Shown: piece after piece, positions 13,197 through 24,918 of the stretch
How the letters are laid out: the number at the start of each line of letters is the position of its first letter
How positions within the stretch are numbered: position 1 is the stretch's first letter
Origin: Verrucomicrobiia bacterium
GTDB taxonomy: Bacteria; Verrucomicrobiota; Verrucomicrobiia; Opitutales; Cerasicoccaceae
Direction: 5' to 3'
Length of the DNA: 64,000 nucleotides
Assembly (NCBI GenBank): GCA_030425485.1
Contig: JAUIAM010000012.1
Location: 1-64,000, forward strand
The notes under the pieces: model-generated
What the model was told of the DNA's origin: nothing
Seen by the model: the letters and a program-made list of their open reading frames with translations, nothing else
Databases searched by the model: none
Program-made: the position numbers and the translations under genes

Positions 13197-14840
13197 TTAG
13201 ACCTTAAACAGCTGCTCGAGGTAGCGCTCCAGGGCTTGGGTATTCGCGGGTAGGCTGCGGAAGCCGATGTACACGTCGGGGCGGATGAGTACCATCGCGC
13301 TGGTCTGGGTCACGCCATAGGTATCGTGTACGGTATTGCGTACATCGAGGTAGGTGCAGTTAGCGTAGTTTGCAAAGGTGCTATTCGCTTGCCGCCCAGT
13401 AATGAGGAGGGGGCGTATGAGCTCGCTGTAAGTGCTCTGGACGCGCTCCAGGGCGTTGAGTATCTCCTGCTGTTCGTCTGCCTGGCTCTGGGGGTGGAGA
13501 AAGAGCATGAGCGTGTGGCGGCGGGTTTGGAAAATATCGATCAGGCGTATGGGCGAGCCGCTGTTGGCATCGGTCAAGACGCCGTCATGGGCACGCATGC
13601 CGATGGGGGCTGCTTTGAGGAAGGCGTGGCGTACGTCGCTCTTGAGCTTGGGGGAGATGACCTCGTCGGTGATCGGGCTGTCGGCGTACGCAATGTCCAT
13701 TTCCTCCATCTTGTCGCGCATCTTCTGGCGAATAAAGTCCACGCTGGAAAGCACGGGCAGGATGCGGTCGCGCATGGCAGTGGCTAGCGGGTGCTTGAGG
13801 CTGGCCAACTGGGTCAGGCGGTCGGTGTAAGTGAGGACTTCGCGTCCGATGGGCTCACGCTCGGCGTTATAGCTGTCGAGGAGGTCAGCTTTTCCCTTGA
13901 GCTTGAGGGCGAGCTTCCAAGCCAGGTTGTAGGCGTCCTGCATACCGGTGTTCATGCCCTGTCCGCCCATGGGGCTGTGGATGTGGGCGGCGTCGCCAGC
14001 GAGAAAACCACGGCCCACGCGGTAGCGGGGCACCTTGCGGTGGTGGATTTTAAAGTGGGAAAACCAGACGGGGTCGTAGAGCCGGGCGGTGGGGATGTCG
14101 CGTTCGACCAAGAGCCGCTCGAAGTAGGCCTGATCGAGCTCGGGTTCTGTTTTTCCATCGACAGTGGCCACAATGCGGAAGCGGGAGTTCTTCATGGGGA
14201 ACATGAGGAACATGCCGTCCGGAGAAAGGAAGAGGTACAGCTCGTCGACAGGCAGTTCCCAGTCCACATGGATGTCGGCCAACACAAAGTGCTCGTCGTA
14301 GGCTTCCCCTACAAAGGGCAGGTCGAGCTGTTTGCGCACGCGGCTGTGCCCGCCATCGCAGCCGACAATGTACTGGGTGGTGAGTTGCTCTTCGCCCGCA
14401 CTGCTGCGGAGCGAAGCCTGTACACCGCTCTCGTCCTGAGTAAAGCCCAGCAGCTCACATTCACGCTCGACTGCTTGTCCGCGCTGGGCCAGGGCGTCGA
14501 TGAGGAGGGCTTCGGTTTCGTTCTGCGGGATGTTGAGCACGAAGTTATACGGGCTGTCCACCTCGGTGATGTCGACGTGTTGCAGGCGTTTTTTGCCCGC
14601 GTACATGTTAATCGCCCCCACACGGAGCCCCTGTTTGACGAAGGTTTCGGCCAGGCCCATGTCGTGCAGCATTTCCAGCGTGCGGGCATGGATAGCGAGT
14701 GCCTTGGACGTGGTGGAGGGCTCGGGCGCCTTGTCCACGAGGCGGAACGCTACCCCATAGCGTGCCAGCTCGTTGGCCAAGGTCAGGCCGACGGGGCCGG
14801 CACCGACGATCAAAACGTCTGTCGAGGAATTTGAACTCAC
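13197..14840 (-). CDS. FAD-dependent aromatic-ring hydroxylase family monooxygenase
   Basis: 547 residues. Three FAD fingerprints are in order: the Rossmann motif VGAGPVGLTLANELA (about 12-26), the DG motif YIVGCDGGHSRVRK (about 157-170) and the GD motif GFLAGDAAHIHSPMGGQG (about 278-295), followed by a thioredoxin-like C-terminal region as in the phenol or pentachlorophenol hydroxylase group. Such enzymes use NAD(P)H and O2 to hydroxylate phenolic rings. No other aromatic degradation gene is nearby, so the substrate is open. It stands as a single minus-strand gene 42 bp upstream of the oppC stop. Confidence 0.88.
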   Translation of the reverse strand: MSSNSSTDVLIVGAGPVGLTLANELARYGVAFRLVDKAPEPSTTSKALAIHARTLEMLHDMGLAETFVKQGLRVGAINMYAGKKRLQHVDITEVDSPYNFVLNIPQNETEALLIDALAQRGQAVERECELLGFTQDESGVQASLRSSAGEEQLTTQYIVGCDGGHSRVRKQLDLPFVGEAYDEHFVLADIHVDWELPVDELYLFLSPDGMFLMFPMKNSRFRIVATVDGKTEPELDQAYFERLLVERDIPTARLYDPVWFSHFKIHHRKVPRYRVGRGFLAGDAAHIHSPMGGQGMNTGMQDAYNLAWKLALKLKGKADLLDSYNAEREPIGREVLTYTDRLTQLASLKHPLATAMRDRILPVLSSVDFIRQKMRDKMEEMDIAYADSPITDEVISPKLKSDVRHAFLKAAPIGMRAHDGVLTDANSGSPIRLIDIFQTRRHTLMLFLHPQSQADEQQEILNALERVQSTYSELIRPLLITGRQANSTFANYANCTYLDVRNTVHDTYGVTQTSAMVLIRPDVYIGFRSLPANTQALERYLEQLFKV

Positions 14841-14882: not shown

Positions 14883-15785
14883 TCACTTTCCGCGTTTGGG
14901 GTCAAGCGCGTCGCGCAGGCCGTCGCCTAGAAAGTTGAGCGAAAACAGGGTCAGGGCAAAGAACAGGCTGGGGAAAAGCAGCATCCAGGGATACTCCTCC
15001 ATGCTCTCGGCCCCCGAACGAATGAGGTCGCCCCAACTGGTTTGCGGGGGCTGCACGCCGAGCCCGAGAAAGCTGATGAAGGCCTCAAGCAGCATGACGC
15101 CGGGTACGGTCAGGGTGGCGTACACGATGATGATGCCTGCGACGTTGGGCAGGAAGTGCTTGCGCATGATGCCGACTGGACCTTGCCCGAGGCAGCGCGC
15201 TGCCTGGACGAAGGATTGCTCCTTTAGGCCCAGGACTTGACCCCGGATGATGCGGGCCATGGTCAGCCACTCCACCGCTCCGATAGCCACGAAGATGAGC
15301 CACAGCTGCCGCCCGAAGAAGACCATGAGCAAGATGACGAAAACCGTAAAGGGCATGGAGTAGAGCACCTCGACCAGGCGCATCATAGCCCGGTCAACGC
15401 GTCCTCCGGCATAGCCGGAAATCATCCCATAGACAACCCCGATGCACACCGCGACCGTGGTGGCCACGGCGCCGACCATGAGCGAGATGCGTCCACCGCT
15501 CAAGATGCGGGCCAGCAAGTCGCGACCCAGGATGTCTGTCCCCAGCCAGTGGGTTGCGCTGGGGCCGCTTGCCCCACGGGCGAGATTTTGCGACTCTGCG
15601 TCATGGGGGAGTAGCCATGGCCCCACGATGCAGGCCAGCACGATTAGCGTTACAATGACCAGCCCGCCCACGGCCATCGGGTTTTGCCGGAAGCGCCGCC
15701 AGGCCTCACGCCCCGGGGAGCGCGAGTGGGCGGATGCGCGCGGAGCAACGGCTTCGCTTTGAGAATGGGCTGAATGTGCGCTCAT
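14883..15785 (-). CDS. oppC: Oligopeptide ABC transporter permease OppC
   Basis: 300 residues from the ATG at 15785, which overlaps the oppB stop as ATGA and is preferred over an ATG 27 bp upstream. A polar N-terminal segment precedes the first membrane helix, as usual for OppC/DppC. The coupling loop EQSFVQAARCLGQGPVGIM carries the EAA-type motif that docks to the ATPase, and the GLGVQPPQTSWG segment near the C-terminus is typical. Third gene of the oppA-oppB-oppC operon; no OppD or OppF ATPase is encoded beside it. Confidence 0.93.
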   Translation of the reverse strand: MSAHSAHSQSEAVAPRASAHSRSPGREAWRRFRQNPMAVGGLVIVTLIVLACIVGPWLLPHDAESQNLARGASGPSATHWLGTDILGRDLLARILSGGRISLMVGAVATTVAVCIGVVYGMISGYAGGRVDRAMMRLVEVLYSMPFTVFVILLMVFFGRQLWLIFVAIGAVEWLTMARIIRGQVLGLKEQSFVQAARCLGQGPVGIMRKHFLPNVAGIIIVYATLTVPGVMLLEAFISFLGLGVQPPQTSWGDLIRSGAESMEEYPWMLLFPSLFFALTLFSLNFLGDGLRDALDPKRGK

Positions 15786-16699
15786 GCCTTCCTCCGCTTG
15801 GGGTTGAGCCACACGAGCAGGATGTCCGAGAGCAGGTTAAAGACGATGATGAGGCTGGCGTAAAAGAGAACCAGACCGCAGACCATTTGGTAGTCGTTGT
15901 CGATGGCTGCCTGGACGAAAAATTGCCCGATGCCCGGGATGCCAAAAATGGTTTCCACCACGAAGGAGCCGCTGATTAACCCCGCGGCTGCGGGGCCGAG
16001 GTACGAAACCACCGGGGTGATGCCGTTGCGCAGGCCGTGGACGAGGTAGGTGCGCAGGGCGGAGACGCCCTTGGCCCGGGCCGTGCGCAGGTAGTCCTCA
16101 CTGCGGACATCGAGCATGCTGCTGCGGGTGAGCCGTGCGATGTAGGCCGCGTAAAACAGACCCAGAGTCAGGGCGGGCAGGATGCGGTCCTGAGGCAGGT
16201 TCCAGCCCATGACGTTGACCCACTGCAGGTCGAGGGCAAAGACCAGGATGAGCAATGGGCCTAGCACAAAGGTGGGCAGGCAGATGCCGATCATGGCCAG
16301 GCTCATGGGGAGGTTATCCGTGAGCTTACCCGGTTGCCAGGCGGCGAGGACGCCGATGCCGATGCCCAGCGTGAGGGCGATTCCCAGAGCGAGTGCGCCC
16401 AGCTCAAGCGAGACGGGCAGCTTGCTGGCGATGATCTCGTTCACCGTCCAGCCCTGATAGACAAAGGTCGGGCCGAGGTCCCCCTGCAGGAGATTGCCGA
16501 GGTAGTCGAGGTACTGGATGTAAACGGGCTGATCGAGTCCGTAGTAGGCTTCGAGCTGCTTTAGCGTCGCTTCGGGGATATCCTTCTCACGGCTGAAGGG
16601 GCCACCGGGTACGGCGCGCAGCATGAAGAACGTCACCGTCAATATGACAAAGAGGACGGCGAGGGCTTCGAGGAAACGCTTGAGGACGGTGGCGAACAC
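15782..16699 (-). CDS. oppB: Oligopeptide ABC transporter permease OppB
   Basis: 305 residues with the DppB/OppB pattern: a first membrane helix, PGGPFSRE after it, LDQPVYIQYLDYLGNLLQGDLG, and the EAA-type loop RTARAKGVSALRTYLVHGLRN about 90 residues from the end. It forms the translocation pore with OppC. Its stop overlaps the oppC start by 4 bp, and 62 bp separate its start from oppA. Confidence 0.93.
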   Translation of the reverse strand: MFATVLKRFLEALAVLFVILTVTFFMLRAVPGGPFSREKDIPEATLKQLEAYYGLDQPVYIQYLDYLGNLLQGDLGPTFVYQGWTVNEIIASKLPVSLELGALALGIALTLGIGIGVLAAWQPGKLTDNLPMSLAMIGICLPTFVLGPLLILVFALDLQWVNVMGWNLPQDRILPALTLGLFYAAYIARLTRSSMLDVRSEDYLRTARAKGVSALRTYLVHGLRNGITPVVSYLGPAAAGLISGSFVVETIFGIPGIGQFFVQAAIDNDYQMVCGLVLFYASLIIVFNLLSDILLVWLNPKRRKA

Positions 16700-16761: not shown

Positions 16762-18390
16762 TCATTCATGGCTGGCATCGAGCCAGATGTACTTGTAGGG
16801 GTGGTCGTCGAGGATGTTGGGGTACCAGCCTTTTACCTCCGGGCGGATGAGGTAGATGCGGTTGTAAAAATAAATGGGCATGATGGGGGTCTCATCGAGG
16901 AAAATCAGCTCCGCCTCGCGCAAGACCTGCTGACGCTTAGCCGGGTCGCCCGTTTGCTCGGCTTGCAGGATGAGGCGGTCAAACTCCGGGTTGCTCCAGC
17001 CGGTGTGGTTGAGCCCCGAGTCGCCCGTCCACATGGTGAGAAAGGTGCTGGCGTCGTTGAAGTCGCCAAACCAGCCCGCACGGGCCACGGCGTAGTCACC
17101 GCTCTTGCGGCGGTCCAGGTACACGGGCCAGGACTGGTTAACCAGCTCGACGGAGACGCCGAGGTGCTGCTGCCACATTTCCTGAATGGCCTCCGCGATG
17201 GGGCGGTGGGATTCGGAGGTATTGTAGAGCAGCTCAATGGCGGGAAAGCCCTTGCCCTCGGGGTAGCCTGCCTCGGCCATGAGTTTACGAGCCGCGGTGA
17301 CGTCCTCGTGGATCGGGCTGTCGGGTGCGTTGTAGGCGTTGGTGGCGGGAGGCACGATGCTGTAGGCGGGGGCTTCGCCGCCGCGGGTGACGGTGTCGAT
17401 GATGGCCTGTCGGTCGATGGCCATGCTAAAGGCTCGGCGCACGCGGGGGTCGTCAAAGGGGGGCTTGCGGGTGTTGAAGATGTAGAAGTAGGTGGCGAGC
17501 GAGGGCTCCATGCGCAGGTAGGGCGAGTCCTCCTGCTGGTAACGCTCGCGCTTGCTCATGGGCACGGAGTCGGTGATGTGGATCTGCCCGGCGCGGAAGG
17601 CCCGCTCCTCGGTGTTCTGGGCGATGGGGAGAAAGGTGATGCCGTTGAGCCGGACGTGTTCCGCGTCCCAGTAGTGCGGGTTTTTGCTCAGGAAAACATG
17701 CTGGCGGAGGTTCCAGTCCGTCAGGGTAAAGGGGCCGTTGCTCACGAGCTGCCCGGGCTTGCTCCAGCCGGTGTGGCGATCGGTCATGGTGCCGTGGGCG
17801 AGGATGGTGGGCGGATGGACCGGAAAGTAGGCGTTGTGCCCGAGGAGGGTGGGGAAGTGCGGCATGGGGCCAACGAGGGAAAGCTCCAGCGTGTGGTCGT
17901 CGAGGGCTTTTACCCCGACTTGGGAAAAGTCCTTCAGCTCGCCGCTGTTGAACTCGCGCGCGCCTTTGATGGGAAAGAGCATGCTGGCGTACTCGGCGGC
18001 GTAGGCCGGGCTGAGGATGCGCTCGTAGGAAAAGACGAAGTCGTGCGCGGTGACGGGGTCGCCGTTGGACCATTTGGCGTCTTTGCGCAGGTAAAAGGTG
18101 TAGACGGAGGCGTCGTGGTTGGACTCCCAACGTTCGGCGGTGCCGGGCTCGGGCTCGGCCGTCTCGGGGTTGGCCAGGGTGAGCCCCTCAAAGAGCGCGG
18201 TCAGGATTTTAAACTCAACCAGCCCGGTGGTCAGTTGGGGGTCGAGAGCTTTGGGGTCGGCCCCATTGCCCACGAGCAGGATGCCCTCCTGGTTCGCTTT
18301 TTCCACCGGGGTGACCCGATCTCCGCAGCCAGCGAGCAAGAGCGTGGCGAGGCAGCAGAGGGTGGATAGCAGGGAAGCAGGTGAAAACAT
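16762..18390 (-). CDS. oppA: Oligopeptide ABC transporter substrate-binding lipoprotein OppA
   Basis: 542 residues. The signal peptide ends in the lipobox LLLAGCGD (about 19-26), so it is a lipid-anchored solute receptor. The SBP_bac_5 fold is clear: KALDPQLTTGLVEFKIL near the N-terminus, the WSNGDPVTAHDFVFSYERI signature and the FDDPRVRRAFSMAIDRQAI segment. The family binds di- and oligopeptides, though some members bind sugars or nickel. First gene of the importer operon. Confidence 0.93.
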   Translation of the reverse strand: MFSPASLLSTLCCLATLLLAGCGDRVTPVEKANQEGILLVGNGADPKALDPQLTTGLVEFKILTALFEGLTLANPETAEPEPGTAERWESNHDASVYTFYLRKDAKWSNGDPVTAHDFVFSYERILSPAYAAEYASMLFPIKGAREFNSGELKDFSQVGVKALDDHTLELSLVGPMPHFPTLLGHNAYFPVHPPTILAHGTMTDRHTGWSKPGQLVSNGPFTLTDWNLRQHVFLSKNPHYWDAEHVRLNGITFLPIAQNTEERAFRAGQIHITDSVPMSKRERYQQEDSPYLRMEPSLATYFYIFNTRKPPFDDPRVRRAFSMAIDRQAIIDTVTRGGEAPAYSIVPPATNAYNAPDSPIHEDVTAARKLMAEAGYPEGKGFPAIELLYNTSESHRPIAEAIQEMWQQHLGVSVELVNQSWPVYLDRRKSGDYAVARAGWFGDFNDASTFLTMWTGDSGLNHTGWSNPEFDRLILQAEQTGDPAKRQQVLREAELIFLDETPIMPIYFYNRIYLIRPEVKGWYPNILDDHPYKYIWLDASHE

Positions 18391-18471: not shown

Positions 18472-20562
18472 TCAGGCGTGTTGGCGCAGGTCGAGGGTGA
18501 GCTTCATTTCGGGCGAAAGGTGGGGCTTGATCGGCTCGGGCGCGGACTCTCTGGCCGGGAGCTTGCGCCAGCGTTCGCGTGAGCGCATGGCAGCCTCTTC
18601 GAGGGTCTGCGGGCGGCCATCGTAGATGGGGCCGTGAGGGTTCCAGTAAAAGTACTTCGCTCCGGTGGTGACGACCTGCTCGTGCTTATCAACCCAGTGG
18701 AAGGAGAGCGGGGCCTGAATGGGCACATGGGGGTGCAGCGCGGGGTAGCCGCTGGCGCACTTGTAGCGGATGCCCGCCACGGGTTTACCCCCGATGTTGG
18801 TAAAGGGCACTTCGACGCCGTTGCAAAGCAGCGTGCCTTCATCGAGGAGCGATTTGTCGCTGAGGGTGACTTCGAGGCGATCGGTGGAGTTGTCCACCAT
18901 GCGCACGGTGGGGCCACCGCTGGAGTCCTCCGCCATGAGGGGAAAGGCTTCCAGTGCCTGCCGCAGGCTGAGCGTGTGCTCGCCGATGGCCAGCTCCCCG
19001 CGCACAGGAAAACGGAAGTCAAAGATGGGGCGCAGCCACTCGACGTCGAAGGGGAAGCCGTACTGCTTCAGCTCGCGGCAGATGCCCTTCAGGTCCTGCC
19101 AGAGGGCAGAGGGCAGGAAGAACTTGTCGTGCAGGGTGGTGCCAAAGCGCGTCATTGGCTGGCTAAAGGGGGCCTTGATCAGGCGCGCGATGATGGTGCG
19201 GATAAACAGGCCGGTGAGCGAGAGCTGCTCGGCGGTGGGGAGGGCCTCGAAAGCCCGGAGCTCGATGATGCCGGTCTTGCCATTGGGGGCGGCGTAATTG
19301 TGAAACTTGTCCATGCAGACCTCGGCCCGGTGGGTGTTGCCGCTGCTGTCGGTGAGAAGGTTGCGCAGGAGGCCGTCGATCATGTCCGGCGCGGGCTTGT
19401 GGGCCGACTCCAGAGCGCGGCAGGCCATCTCCAGTTCATAAACGCCGTGCGGGCTACTCTCGTCAATACGCGGTGCCTGGCAGCCAGAGCCCACGTACTG
19501 CCCGGTGAAGACGTAGCTCAGGGCGGGGTGGTGCTGCCAGTAGCGCAGAATGCTGGCCAGGATGGCCGGGTCGCGGTGAAAGGGGTTGCGCTCGGCGTCC
19601 GGGCCGCCAAAGGCCAGGTGCGAGCCGCCGCCGGAGGCCTGAATGGTGCCGTTGAGGTGGAGCTTGATCGCCCGCATGCCCTCAAGCTCGGCCTTGTCGT
19701 AAATCTCGCGGAGGCATTGATCGTAGTGGGTCCAGGTATGGCATACGGGGAGGTTAGCTTCGAGTACGCCGGGGTCGGCCGCGAGGGAAAACTTCTCCAC
19801 CGCGCTGCCACAGCCCTCGGGAGCATAGCCGCAGAAAACGAGGTCGCGCAGGTCGTGCTTGTCGGCCAGCTCGGCCATGGTGCCCACCAGTTCGCGGAAG
19901 TGCGGCCAGTCCAGTGGCGGGAAGAACACCTCCAGCGCGCCGTTTCTTACTTCGACGGTCAGGGCGAGCTTGAGATGCTTATCGGGAATCTCGCTCAGGG
20001 GCAGGCGCAGTCCGGCGGGGCTGTCTCCTCCAATGAGCTTGATCGGGCGGTTGGCCGTGTAGGGCCATTGGTCGGAAATCCATTGACCGTCTGCGATGGC
20101 CAGCGGGAGAATCCAGGCCGTGGTCTGGCGACCTTCCTGCTCGCGGGCGTTCTGCACCTTGTCTTGAAAGCCGAGGCTCTTGGCCAACCGCTTGATAAAT
20201 TTTCCCGCTGCTTCGTGGGTATTTCCGCCCTTGACGTCGTCGAGCAGGAGGCGCTCGGGGGCCGGCCAGAGGGGGTCGGCAGACTTGGGGTGGAGCGTGA
20301 GGATGTTCCAGCGCGGGAGGGGTTCGCCGGGGTACCACTTGCCAAAGACCTGCATAGCGAGTGCGCCGGGGTAGGTGGACTCAAGCAGGCGTGCGGTCAT
20401 GCGCCGGGCATAGCCGAGCTTTTCCTCGCCCATGGCGGCGTTGTTCCACTCGGGGGCGTGGGGCTGGTCGGGGACAAAGGTGGGCTCGCCTCCCATCGTG
20501 AGGTGGATATCCCGCTCGCACAAAAAGGATTCAACGCGCTCGGCCAGGTCTTGGTAGGTCAT
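18472..20562 (-). CDS. DUF2126 putative amidoligase
   Basis: 696 residues. The sequence matches the glutamine-synthetase-like amidoligase family DUF2126 (PF09899): an N-terminal region with LTMGGEPTFV, the IKLHLNGTIQASGGGSHLAFGG core, and FHRDPAILASILRYW. In most bacteria I recall, this region is fused behind a transglutaminase domain in one protein of about 1100 residues; here it is a separate gene whose ATG overlaps the transglutaminase stop by 4 bp. It is predicted to form amide bonds on an unknown peptide or protein. Last gene of a four-gene overlapping operon. Confidence 0.88.
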   Translation of the reverse strand: MTYQDLAERVESFLCERDIHLTMGGEPTFVPDQPHAPEWNNAAMGEEKLGYARRMTARLLESTYPGALAMQVFGKWYPGEPLPRWNILTLHPKSADPLWPAPERLLLDDVKGGNTHEAAGKFIKRLAKSLGFQDKVQNAREQEGRQTTAWILPLAIADGQWISDQWPYTANRPIKLIGGDSPAGLRLPLSEIPDKHLKLALTVEVRNGALEVFFPPLDWPHFRELVGTMAELADKHDLRDLVFCGYAPEGCGSAVEKFSLAADPGVLEANLPVCHTWTHYDQCLREIYDKAELEGMRAIKLHLNGTIQASGGGSHLAFGGPDAERNPFHRDPAILASILRYWQHHPALSYVFTGQYVGSGCQAPRIDESSPHGVYELEMACRALESAHKPAPDMIDGLLRNLLTDSSGNTHRAEVCMDKFHNYAAPNGKTGIIELRAFEALPTAEQLSLTGLFIRTIIARLIKAPFSQPMTRFGTTLHDKFFLPSALWQDLKGICRELKQYGFPFDVEWLRPIFDFRFPVRGELAIGEHTLSLRQALEAFPLMAEDSSGGPTVRMVDNSTDRLEVTLSDKSLLDEGTLLCNGVEVPFTNIGGKPVAGIRYKCASGYPALHPHVPIQAPLSFHWVDKHEQVVTTGAKYFYWNPHGPIYDGRPQTLEEAAMRSRERWRKLPARESAPEPIKPHLSPEMKLTLDLRQHA

Positions 20563-21449
20563 GTGATTTCCTCCATTTTGAGTTCGATTTCCATGTGCGA
20601 GGGGACTTGCACGTCGTGGTAGTAGCGGCCCTGAACGGGGTTGGCCTGGGCGGGGTTACCGGCAACTGCCGTGGGGATAAAAAAGTGGTTGGCCAGGATG
20701 CCATTGGTCGGGTCAAAACCCTTCCAGCCTGCGCCGGGGAGGTAAATCTCCAGCCACGCGTGCATGGAGCCGTGGGCGCGGTTAAAGATGCGCTCGCCGT
20801 CTTCGCCACCGGGCGGGTCGTAGAGATAGCCGCTGACGAAGCGTGCGGCCAGGCCGAGCTGGCGGGCGATGGCGATCATGAGCACGGCCATGTCGCGGCA
20901 CGAGCCCGAGCCTTTGGCCAGGGTTTCGTCAGGCGTCTGGATGCCTTCTTCGTCGCGTCGCTGGTAGGCGATTTTTTCAAAAACGGCCTGATTGATCTCG
21001 GCCAGAAAAGAAACGATATTGTCGGACTGATTGGGGTTTTTAACGGCGGTGTAAAACCAGTCGAGCACCTTGGATGCGCCGGGCTGCGGGGTGGGGCAAA
21101 GGTAGGGACTCAGGGCCTGGGTCTCGTGCGGCAGGTAACGCATGGGATAGCCCAGGGCATGCGTATCGAGGATGAAGTCGAAGGGGTTGGTATCGCGCAG
21201 GCGAACGTGGATCGTGGCCTTAAACTCCAGCAGATCGGTTTTGGTCAGCCCGTAGTCCACCCGCAGGACGATGTTCTCGAAGCAGTCACGGACCCAGCGG
21301 GTGTTGGCCTCGGGCTGGGTTTCTATTTCAAAGCTGTCGGCCCGTATCACCTGACTCTCGCGCGGGTACAAAAACAATTGGTGAGGGCTGAAGGTGACAG
21401 CCTGTTCGTAGCGGTAGCGCGTGGTGTGGTGGATGGCCAGATGTGTCAT
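20559..21449 (-). CDS. Transglutaminase-family protein (fused to DUF2126 in other bacteria)
   Basis: 296 residues. An N-terminal beta domain with IHHTTRYRYEQAV (Bact_transglu_N type) precedes the transglutaminase-like core. The papain-type triad is present: Cys in GSGSCRDMAVL (about 184), His in GSMHAWLEIYLPGAGW (about 227) and Asp in FDPTNG (about 242). These enzymes may cleave or cross-link peptides. Both ends overlap neighbours by 4 bp (ATGA), which indicates translational coupling with the second transglutaminase upstream and the amidoligase downstream. Confidence 0.9.
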   Translation of the reverse strand: MTHLAIHHTTRYRYEQAVTFSPHQLFLYPRESQVIRADSFEIETQPEANTRWVRDCFENIVLRVDYGLTKTDLLEFKATIHVRLRDTNPFDFILDTHALGYPMRYLPHETQALSPYLCPTPQPGASKVLDWFYTAVKNPNQSDNIVSFLAEINQAVFEKIAYQRRDEEGIQTPDETLAKGSGSCRDMAVLMIAIARQLGLAARFVSGYLYDPPGGEDGERIFNRAHGSMHAWLEIYLPGAGWKGFDPTNGILANHFFIPTAVAGNPAQANPVQGRYYHDVQVPSHMEIELKMEEIT

Positions 21450-22345
21450 TCGTCAGTGTCTTCGGGTGTTTCCTCGTTGCGCGGGCGGCGGCGTTTCAGC
21501 GTCACGATAACTTGTAGGCGTTGGTCCTGTGCCCCTTTGTAGGCGCCGCGCATGGGGGCCACGTCGTTGTAATCGCGTCCGGCAGCCACGCGGACGTGTC
21601 GCACACCTGCGGCTTGGTTGTTGGTGGGGTCGAGCCCGTACCAATGCCCGCCGGGCAGGTAGACCTCGACCCAGGCGTGACTGGCGGCAGCTCCGGTCAG
21701 CTCCGCTCCGGGCTTGTCCGGGTCGTAGGGCTCGATGTAGCCGCTGACGTAGCGCGCCGGAATATTATGAATACGCAGGATGGCCAGCATGAGGTGGGCA
21801 AAGTCCTGGCAAACGCCCTGCTTGGTCTTGAGCACGGTGGGCAGCGGGGTGCCGATGTCCGTGCTGCCGGGCGAGTAGGCAAAGTTCTCGTAGATCCAGG
21901 TATTGAGCCCGTGCAGGGCGCTCTTGAGCGTGGCTGCGTCGCGAAAGTGCTTCCTGCGGATGAGGCTGCGCAGGCGGGTGTAGGGGACCAGTTCGGTGTC
22001 CTGCAGGAAGTCGTAGAGCATGGGCTCGCGCGAGCCGAGGATCTGGCGGGCGTCCCCGACGGGGGTTTCCAGGATGCGGCTCAGGTCCGGCCCCTTGCAG
22101 GTTTCGACTTCGCCCACGGCATCGACGGAGAGCTCGTTGTGGCGAAAGGGAATGGAAAAATACTCCACCTTGTTGCCAAAATAGTCCGTGTAGTGGGAGA
22201 CGGGTACGCTGGGGGTGATGGTCAGCGTGTGGCTGAGAATCTTTTGGGTGGGGCCATCCTGCGGCCAGACGCGCAGCTCGGCGTAAGACTCCGATGCGGG
22301 GGTCTTGTAGCGATAGCGGGTGGTGTGGGTGACCTTGAATCTCAT
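21446..22345 (-). CDS. Second transglutaminase-family protein
   Basis: 299 residues with the same plan as its neighbour: beta domain starting VTHTTRYRYKTP, then the core with Cys in TKQGVCQDFAHLML (about 182), His in ASHAWVEVYLPGGHW and Asp in GLDPTNN. The C-terminal residues KRRRPRNEETPEDTDE look disordered. The two transglutaminases share only the family framework, so they are old paralogues, as in other copies of this gene cluster. Start and stop both overlap neighbouring genes by 4 bp. Confidence 0.9.
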   Translation of the reverse strand: MRFKVTHTTRYRYKTPASESYAELRVWPQDGPTQKILSHTLTITPSVPVSHYTDYFGNKVEYFSIPFRHNELSVDAVGEVETCKGPDLSRILETPVGDARQILGSREPMLYDFLQDTELVPYTRLRSLIRRKHFRDAATLKSALHGLNTWIYENFAYSPGSTDIGTPLPTVLKTKQGVCQDFAHLMLAILRIHNIPARYVSGYIEPYDPDKPGAELTGAAASHAWVEVYLPGGHWYGLDPTNNQAAGVRHVRVAAGRDYNDVAPMRGAYKGAQDQRLQVIVTLKRRRPRNEETPEDTDE

Positions 22346-24918
22346 GCTCCGGGCTGCAATTCGATGGAGAGCTGGTTCTCGCTGTAAAATTCGCTCTGGT
22401 GACTGAAGTAGGCGTCCTCGATCAGTTCGTGGAGCTGGTCGAGTTCGCTGGTGATGTGGGAGAGGATTTTTGAAAGCTCGGGCCGGGGCGGTGTCGGCGT
22501 GGTATCCGGTTCGCCACGGTCAAACTCTTTTACGGAGTTGGGCACTAGCTGGAACAATGCCAGCGTCTCGACATCTTTGATCGCCGTTTCGATGCCCTTG
22601 TTCAGCTCTGCGGTGTTAGTGGGCAGGCCGTTGATGGAAAGCGTGCCCAGGGCGTAACGCACCTGGCGCAGACAGTGGCTGACCGAGCTGGGGTTTGCCG
22701 GGTGCTGGAGGAGCAGGTGGGCGACGCGGTCAAGGTAGGCGCGGGAGCGGAACTCGCGGCGGTAGGCGTCGAGTGAACTGAGCAGGCGCAGCAGGGCGGT
22801 CAGGTCGGCCTCGTCTTCCTGGTTATCGGCGGAGTACTGGAGGGTCCAGTTGAGTACCTCGCGCACCATGATAGCGGTGCCCTGGGAACGCTCCACAAAC
22901 GAACCGATGCGGAAAAACTGCCAGCCGTCATCGTGGAGCATGGTGCGTTCGGCCGTGCCGGAGAGGCGGGCGGCATCGTCCACCACGCGCTGACAGGTTT
23001 CACGCAGGCGACCGCGTGGGGAACGGGTGCGCTTGGCTTCGTCCTTGATGTAAAAGTACAGGTCGCTGAGGACTTGCCAGACTTCGGGGCTGATAAAATC
23101 GCGGATCTGCCGCGCCCCGAAGTAGGCCGCGGTGATGCTGGCGTTGATCGAGGCGGGCTCGTCGGCCTTCAGGATGAGGGCGCGGGTGATGCTCAGGGTG
23201 TCCTTGGGCGGGCTCTTGCGCTTGGACCAGTCACTCTGGCCGTTGGCAGTGGCCACGGCCTTCCAGAGCGGCCAGAAGCTCCGTTGCGCGCTCTTGCCGA
23301 GTTGATCCCAGCGCAGGGTCTCAAGGATGTTGAGCTGGCGGGCGGTGTTCTCGAAGCGTTGCAGGTAGCGGCCCGTCCAGTAGAGGGCCTCGGCCACCCG
23401 GCTGCTGATGGAGAAGTCCTCCGGGTCGAGGGTGATGGTGTTGCGGGCGGAGTTAAACTCGTAGGGCTGGGCCGGAACCCAAGTGTCCTTCATGCCGTCG
23501 GACATGATGGTGAGCGGGTTTTGCCGTGCGCGACCCCAGCTCTGGCGGGTCAGGCCGCCGGGGAGGACGGTGGGCTTTGCCCCGAGTTGGAAAAACACGC
23601 GCAGAAACACGCTCCCGGTCTGGAAGGTGTTGTCTTTAAAACACGGCATCTGCGAGGGATGCTGGTAGGGCTGCGCCACAAAGAGGTGGGGCCACTTTTG
23701 GGCCAGGCGCAGGAGCTGCTCGCGGCTCTCGGGGAGCTTTTGCCCGCCGAGGTACTTGTGCAGCGTGTAGCTGTCCTGAATGGGCTTGATGACCATCTCC
23801 TCCTCGTGGCTCATGACGTAGTCAAACTGGTCAATGTCGCCGCAGTTGTAGGTCGTGACGGTGTCGAGGATGGCGTTTTCGCGCAGGTAATAGCCGATCA
23901 GTGCCTTGGAGTGACGGAGGAGGGCGCGGTTGTCCGCTACGCCGCAGCCCAGCGCGTTGATGAACTTCACGGTGCCGTCGCGGACGCAATTCACGATCCC
24001 CGGAATGCCGAGATAACCGCTTTCGGCGAAGGCGATCGGGTCGATGGCTGAGCTGGCCAGGCGGCGGTAAATGACGTCCACCTGCTCCAGCCCGCGGATG
24101 GTCTTCAGGTAAACTTTGCCCTGGCGAATGAGCAGGTCAGCCGGGCGCACCATGGCGATACCGAGCTGGCGGGCGAGGAAGCTTTCGTCAAAGTAGGCTT
24201 GGTTGGTCTCGCCACGGGTGAGCAGCACGATGTGCGGGTTGTCCTTGTGCGAGGCCAGGCGGAGGTTTTCCGAGAGTTGAGAAATGAAGGGCGCGACGGG
24301 GCTGACGTCCATCGGCTGGAAGACCTCGGGAAAACCCTGGGCCAGCATGCGCCTGTTCTGCATGACAAAGGACAAGCCGAAGGGGGTGGCCATGTGGTGC
24401 TCGAGCACGCGCCACTGCCCGTCGCCTTGGCGCTGGAGGTCGAAGGCACCGAGGTGGCAGTATTGGCTATCGGGCACGCCGACGGTGGTCAAGGGCCGCT
24501 GAAAGGCCGGGTCACTCAGGGCAACCTCGGGCGGGATCATGCGCTGCTTAAGGATGCCCTGCTCGTTGTAAAGGTCGTTGATGTAGGCATTGAGCGCCTT
24601 GGCCCGCTGGAGGATGCCGGCGGAGAGATACTCCCACTCCTCGCGCGGGATGACGCGGGGAAAGAGGTCCAGCCGCCAGTCGGCTTCGCGGGGCTTGGCC
24701 TCGTCCACGACATTAAAGTGTACGCCCAGATCGCGCGCGCCGCGGTCGAGCCGTTCCTGTCGGTTCTTCAGGTGAGCGGGGCTCATCGTCTCGATGACGT
24801 CGAGCACCGGAGCATAGGGCGATGCCTCCCCGGAGCCGTAGAAGTTGAGCTCGTTGCGGGGGTCCTGGCTCAGCTTAAAGTGCTGGTAGCGGCGTTTTGG
24901 TCTGGCGGCTGCGGTCAT
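22342..24918 (-). CDS. Circularly permuted ATP-grasp protein fused to alpha-E domain
   Basis: 858 residues from the ATG at 24918 (an ATG at 24990 would add 24 residues of doubtful value). Residues about 60-500 are a circularly permuted ATP-grasp type 2 domain (NAYINDLYNEQGI, LLTRGETNQAYFDESFLAR, DVIYRRL, FVAQPYQHPSQMPCF). From about 515 (ISSRVAEALYWTGRYLQRFENTARQ) begins the all-helical alpha-E domain (DUF403). In many genomes these are two genes; here they are fused. ATP-grasp enzymes join carboxylates to amines, so with the amidoligase and transglutaminases it fits a peptide-forming or protein-tagging system, a role proposed from comparative genomics but not shown biochemically as far as I know. 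First gene of the operon. Confidence 0.9.
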   Translation of the reverse strand: MTAAARPKRRYQHFKLSQDPRNELNFYGSGEASPYAPVLDVIETMSPAHLKNRQERLDRGARDLGVHFNVVDEAKPREADWRLDLFPRVIPREEWEYLSAGILQRAKALNAYINDLYNEQGILKQRMIPPEVALSDPAFQRPLTTVGVPDSQYCHLGAFDLQRQGDGQWRVLEHHMATPFGLSFVMQNRRMLAQGFPEVFQPMDVSPVAPFISQLSENLRLASHKDNPHIVLLTRGETNQAYFDESFLARQLGIAMVRPADLLIRQGKVYLKTIRGLEQVDVIYRRLASSAIDPIAFAESGYLGIPGIVNCVRDGTVKFINALGCGVADNRALLRHSKALIGYYLRENAILDTVTTYNCGDIDQFDYVMSHEEEMVIKPIQDSYTLHKYLGGQKLPESREQLLRLAQKWPHLFVAQPYQHPSQMPCFKDNTFQTGSVFLRVFFQLGAKPTVLPGGLTRQSWGRARQNPLTIMSDGMKDTWVPAQPYEFNSARNTITLDPEDFSISSRVAEALYWTGRYLQRFENTARQLNILETLRWDQLGKSAQRSFWPLWKAVATANGQSDWSKRKSPPKDTLSITRALILKADEPASINASITAAYFGARQIRDFISPEVWQVLSDLYFYIKDEAKRTRSPRGRLRETCQRVVDDAARLSGTAERTMLHDDGWQFFRIGSFVERSQGTAIMVREVLNWTLQYSADNQEDEADLTALLRLLSSLDAYRREFRSRAYLDRVAHLLLQHPANPSSVSHCLRQVRYALGTLSINGLPTNTAELNKGIETAIKDVETLALFQLVPNSVKEFDRGEPDTTPTPPRPELSKILSHITSELDQLHELIEDAYFSHQSEFYSENQLSIELQPGA

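Follow-up and report, generated by a model that had tools for sequence, protein, structure and literature searches.

The four-gene operon described here is a real and conserved gene set, an Opitutales split variant of the widespread DUF2126 system, and the ATP-grasp half of its first protein is judged, from the residues at its ATP site, to be a pseudoenzyme. An intact ATP-grasp and alpha-E pair, likely the active one, is encoded at an unlinked position of the same genome, outside the window (the whole stretch of DNA analysed, 64,000 nucleotides).

The operon is composed of four open reading frames on the minus strand (Table 1): an ATP-grasp::alpha-E fusion, two transglutaminase (TG)-like proteins and a short DUF2126 amidoligase. 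The sequence-only reading had proposed these genes, this order and 4-bp ATGA overlaps at all three junctions, and the match in the sequence is exact (computed spacings -4, -4 and -4), the minus strand having been left implicit. The identities it gave are backed by Pfam: gene 1 matches CP_ATPgrasp_2 (E 1e-117) and Alpha-E (E 2e-62), genes 2 and 3 each match Transglut_core and Bact_transglu_N, and gene 4 matches DUF2126 (E 8e-179). None of the four proteins was matched by NCBIfam models. The window genome (3.8 Mb, 62 contigs) is 98% complete, and the closest named record, from Verrucomicrobiota/Opitutales/Puniceicoccaceae MAGs, has 69% identity over DUF2126. Inspection brought no signal peptide to light, and so we take the four proteins to be cytoplasmic. 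Since the gene set is kept in relatives, and the 4-bp overlap between the two TG genes in most of them, the arrangement is not due to chance.

Table 1. Coordinates of the operon, of the degenerate phosphate loop and of the adjoining importer genes in the window.
Feature	Position	Strand	Basis
ATP-grasp::alpha-E fusion, 858 aa, first operon gene	22342..24918	-	PF14403 aa 87-458, PF04168 aa 505-838
TG-A, transglutaminase-like, 299 aa	21446..22345	-	Pfam and TG tree
TG-B, transglutaminase-like, 296 aa	20559..21449	-	Pfam and TG tree
Short DUF2126 amidoligase, 696 aa, predicted glutamine-synthetase-like fold, two fused-form inserts absent	18472..20562	-	Pfam and model
Degenerate glycine-rich phosphate loop DSYTLHK (x-x-GGYGM in standalone enzymes)	23755..23775	-	alignments
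OppA-type peptide-binding protein, 81 bp downstream of operon	16762..18390	-	Pfam, NCBIfam, synteny
OppB-type permease	15782..16699	-	Pfam
OppC-type permease	14883..15812	-	Pfam

The fused protein clearly belongs to its family (393 bits against PF14403, cut-off 32; match to PDB 3n6x with E 1e-78). Invariance was defined on 11 standalone homologues and PDB 3n6x, which gave 144 invariant columns. Missing from the window protein and its fused relatives are the GGYGM glycine-rich loop, the Asn of E-x-N and the Arg after that motif, the Asp of DLRP and the Asn/Gln of NSSQGGG; every standalone ATP-grasp retains ExN/R, GGYGM, DLRP and NSSQGGG. The window protein thus does not carry the motifs of a catalytically active circularly permuted ATP-grasp. 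Degeneracy of the ATP site was found in essentially all fused proteins compared (30-odd, from three phyla). Those of the canonical systems have lost the same sites with other replacements, and those of genomes without DUF2126 are likewise degenerate at these motifs. In the ATP-grasp tree three groups are formed by the standalone, canonical-fused and window-type-fused proteins. The lost positions are ones which we take to bind metal and ATP, as in known ATP-grasp enzymes such as glutathionylspermidine synthetase. The possibility raised in the sequence-only reading, that catalytic ATP-binding residues are lost on careful alignment, therefore holds for the ATP-grasp half; DUF2126 keeps the conserved polar residues of its family, and both TGs their catalytic triad. 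A fused ATP-grasp without residues for ATP use means that the ATP-driven step must fall to another enzyme, in the set or encoded elsewhere. The AlphaFold model of the fusion, built with seven sequences, reached a pLDDT of 39.

Family searches in the window's own genome found a separate ATP-grasp (480 aa) and alpha-E (345 aa), both intact and adjacent on contig C46, with no TG beside them. A third TG with Bact_transglu_N is present alone on contig C40; this lone gene (L012, 7825-8691) lies between murA-like and ruvB-like genes and its product is nearest to the TG-B lineage. No PF00227 match was found in this 98% complete genome, which leaves it without a Pfam-detectable proteasome, HslV or Anbu homologue; the window operon is therefore not an Anbu operon and that reading was ruled out.

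Of 132 related genomes, 60 carry the standalone ATP-grasp (one more has a partial match only); the fused protein occurs in 40 of the 60, and DUF2126 in 30 of those 40. This nesting of DUF2126 within fused within standalone has no exception among the 132 genomes, and the Fisher tests are far below 1e-15, a statistic which ignores relatedness. Such nesting is what a dependence of the fused protein on the intact one, and of DUF2126 on both, would produce.

Neighbourhoods were compared at about 60 loci. The canonical order is ATP-grasp, alpha-E, TG::DUF2126 (about 1,100 aa), ATP-grasp::alpha-E and TG, seen in other Opitutales, in Burkholderia and Caballeronia and on an Enterobacter plasmid; Granulicella, Azospirillum and Shinella have its last three genes. 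In the window-type order the ATP-grasp::alpha-E fusion is followed by TG-A, TG-B and the short DUF2126. Several Coraliomargarita-like genomes (L050-L052, L117) have a standalone ATP-grasp, alpha-E and an extra TG directly ahead of these, giving seven genes in a row, and further Opitutales carry standalone ATP-grasp, alpha-E, TG-A, TG-B and DUF2126 (L112, L115) or just TG-B and DUF2126. The sequence-only reading had described the operon as a rearrangement of familiar parts, with the amidoligase usually fused to a TG and alpha-E often separate elsewhere. The first half of this stands, the split of TG and DUF2126 being unusual. The second half needs revision, since fusion of ATP-grasp to alpha-E is the rule for the DUF2126-linked copy, and the separate alpha-E belongs to the second, standalone pair, which this genome has too.

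The TG tree pairs TG-A with the TG that is a gene of its own in the canonical system and puts TG-B with the DUF2126-fused TG domain (SH-aLRT 100), so that the parts are one-to-one orthologous with those of the canonical system. Both window TGs have the Cys-His-Asp triad of PF01841, as do nearly all relatives, and the two window proteins look active from it.

The window DUF2126 (597 bits against PF09899, cut-off 27) falls within the family, and its alignment places it in a short subfamily: profile regions of about 169-207 and 266-326 are unmatched, and the TG is a separate gene, so that neither the two inserts nor the N-terminal TG of the canonical fused subfamily is present. The two missing stretches, of about 30 and 80 residues, bear residues which are invariant in the fused forms. 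The split proteins retain a long series of polar residues conserved in the family (E26, K48, K75, E80, R84, D180, R186, D263, E268, N270, H315, H345, Q362, R365, D367, E368, E376, E378, N409, H411, R412, E414, D418, K419, E434, R436 and E439), and by these DUF2126 looks active. An AlphaFold2 model of the short form (14 sequences) had a mean pLDDT of 79 and a pTM of 0.85, with several of the most-conserved loops among its low-confidence parts. Searched with Foldseek, this predicted model returned glutamine synthetases (GS) at the top (best E 1.7e-3); VIA-align gave a GS with Z 11.2 over 248 residues (rmsd 4.0), and nearly all of its top 50 matches were GS or relatives. The model thus has a GS-like catalytic fold. 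A profile-profile (HH) comparison between DUF2126 and GS found no significant similarity (probability 0.4%), so the active site was mapped onto GS by motif only; we infer that GGEPTF, GGGSH and IELR may be the counterparts of GS motifs.

The phylogeny of split versus fused DUF2126, suggested as a check in the sequence-only reading, places the Opitutales short forms in a clade of their own (34 rows, support 100/99), apart from the fused forms. With the two inserts also missing, a simple recent fission of TG::DUF2126 is excluded. Within the phylum sample, the short forms are restricted to this order and two genomes of the same class; a single sequence of a different family in the class (L111) attaches to the clade by a very long branch. 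Three sister-genus genomes (g4; G007-G009) carry both fused (L061-L063) and short (L068-L070) DUF2126 at different places, and the two forms are therefore not simple replacements of each other. Acidithiobacillus caldus also has TG and DUF2126 as separate proteins; these group with the fused ones and go back to an independent split. A TG-B/DUF2126 pair of the gammaproteobacterium Aliiglaciecola lipolytica (L054, 7088-10103) nests inside the Opitutales short clade, suggesting horizontal transfer. Broken frames were seen at two loci: DUF2126 in G105 (L074, 8095-10441) is split into two open reading frames, and in Halomonas sp. PA16-9 (L124, 5196-13741) the DUF2126, ATP-grasp and TG frames are in pieces, due to either sequencing errors or decay. 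A 1,905-aa DUF2126 frame in G201 (L110) was rejected as a giant fusion; the TG and ATP-grasp genes overlap it in different frames, and it is regarded as an over-extended reading frame.

The oligopeptide importer that the sequence-only reading placed directly downstream on the same strand is indeed there (Table 1). The oppA gene is likely to share the transcript of the operon or to be its neighbour by synteny. It comes after DUF2126, with both on one strand, in five genomes: that of the window, the three relatives of its genus and G005, which belongs to another genus. In G003 (L075, 14569-19000) a fused OppBC-like permease, oppD and oppF are found directly upstream of the operon and oppA and oppB downstream; with oppD and oppF ahead of it, the cassette lies inside an opp cluster. 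This association does not extend beyond the window's family, and several relatives and other genera are without it; the opp neighbourhood could be plain synteny. A FAD monooxygenase gene (PF01494; window 13197-14840) starts 42 bp after oppC on the same strand, and is not at that place in the relatives compared. No convincing sigma54-type promoter or nitrogen-control site was seen upstream of the operon. In Burkholderia cenocepacia a cluster of DUF404/407, DUF403, TG-like and large TG-like genes is strongly NtrC/sigma54-dependent under nitrogen limitation (PMC5491218), and, to go by its "large" TG protein, this cluster probably contains DUF2126. On the megaplasmid of Acidithiobacillus caldus (L119, 1-20244) the surroundings of the DUF2126 genes include ntrBC (glnL/ntrC) and an aliphatic amidase.

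The amidoligase/ATP-grasp/TG class is reported to have been proposed by Iyer et al. 2009. Our literature search found no functional study of DUF2126 and no assigned product for the gene set, in agreement with the sequence-only reading. Useful new points are the putatively dead ATP-grasp, relative to literature other than Iyer et al. 2009, the strict nesting and the short DUF2126 clade. Compared with the canonical five-gene DUF2126 system of the Enterobacter roggenkampii plasmid and of Caballeronia, the window has the same parts, one-to-one TG lineages and the fused pseudo-ATP-grasp::alpha-E, but its TG and DUF2126 are separate, two inserts are missing, the gene order is another and the intact pair is unlinked. 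The Anbu operon (Anbu, ATP-grasp, alpha-E, TG) shares ATP-grasp, alpha-E and TG-like proteins with the window, whereas the window genome has no detected proteasome-family protein and the Anbu operon, by its descriptions, no DUF2126. With glutamine synthetase, GmaS and Dop/PafA, DUF2126 has in common the predicted fold and the motif-like stretches GGEPTF, GGGxH and IELR, but no significant sequence-profile similarity. In the Pseudomonas RimK/RimB and Rlo systems an ATP-grasp is likewise paired with hydrolase-like partners (a peptidase; an inactive TG in Rlo); their ATP-grasp is by description of another family, and the dead partner is the TG in Rlo and, apparently, the fused ATP-grasp in the window.

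The explanation we favour, to which we give about an even chance, is a cytoplasmic pathway that forms and edits peptide amide bonds, with the pseudo-ATP-grasp::alpha-E as a scaffold or regulatory subunit. DUF2126, as a GS-fold carboxylate-amine ligase, would activate a carboxylate with ATP, which would then be joined to the amine of an amino acid or small peptide. A second ligase step would come from the intact ATP-grasp and alpha-E pair on the other contig, and the two TG-fold proteins, as thiol amidases or transamidases, would cleave or transfer amides. The fused protein would hold together or control DUF2126, the intact pair or both, a role suggested by co-occurrence and motif loss. Ligation by DUF2126 and the scaffold role fit the residue evidence, and a link to peptide uptake or nitrogen supply is conceivable. 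In the Yersinia Anbu operon, the ATP-grasp protein frees phosphate from ATP, with no known acceptor (PMC6376114). A wider proposal, which we put forward tentatively and think improbable as a whole, is that all DUF2126 systems depend on an obligate pair of live and dead circularly permuted ATP-grasps, the dead one being fused to alpha-E, and that in Opitutales a distinct split amidoligase has evolved, which would act with the Opp importer on a recycled peptide-derived metabolite.

The main function could instead be breakdown: the TGs would deamidate imported peptides or cut them, and the ligase would reuse the groups set free. The downstream oppABC genes, the NtrC dependence of the Burkholderia cluster (PMC5491218) and the ntrBC and amidase genes near the A. 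caldus locus all point towards such nitrogen salvage; we nevertheless see it as possible but improbable, as it leaves the strict linkage of a ligase to two ATP-grasp paralogues unexplained and as the region upstream of the window operon yielded no nitrogen-control site. Unlikely, too, is protein tagging, where DUF2126 would add a peptide or amino acid to proteins in the manner of the GS-fold Pup ligase PafA, and the TGs would remove or exchange it. Tagging has been proposed for the related Anbu operon (PMC6376114) and would suit the GS fold and the presence of the depupylase Dop, a PafA relative, among the Foldseek matches, but the Pfam search detected neither proteasome nor HslV nor Anbu in the window genome, and a non-systematic look at small open reading frames beside the operon brought up no small tag gene.

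The two remaining readings turn on how the motif loss is understood. That the fused ATP-grasp is still a ligase, binding its nucleotide by a diverged site, is doubtful: most DUF2126-linked fused proteins retain the VxKP lysine and the KD of KDTW, and most window-type proteins the E of E-x-N, but the phosphate loop is gone, as are the E-x-N asparagine, the DLRP aspartate and NSSQ, and the losses differ by lineage. A decaying, functionless operon, to which the degenerate ATP-grasp motifs and the interrupted DUF2126 frame of G105 could be credited, is scarcely believable against intact frames, conserved DUF2126 and TG residues and a gene order kept across several genera.

Bacteria commonly carry this gene set, both chromosomally and on plasmids. 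The dependency running from DUF2126 to the fused pseudo-ATP-grasp and on to the intact ATP-grasp, together with the loss of ATP residues, tells the ligase candidates from the subunit, and the Opitutales split version, with its parts on separate genes, is easier to purify and test part by part. The plasmid of Enterobacter roggenkampii, a 90-kb IncFII plasmid (L121, 5676-14873), has the full canonical five-gene system near IS elements and an arsenate reductase gene. A zinc-ribbon metallopeptidase (PF15887 Peptidase_Mx and PF10005) is found repeatedly beside DUF2126 genes in two phyla (L047, 5289-6335; L048; L058, 11375-12448; L124, 3575-4351; L126, 5881-6942). This metallopeptidase is absent from the window genome and rare in the order, with 12 strong matches in the 132 genomes, all 12 in genomes with the standalone ATP-grasp.
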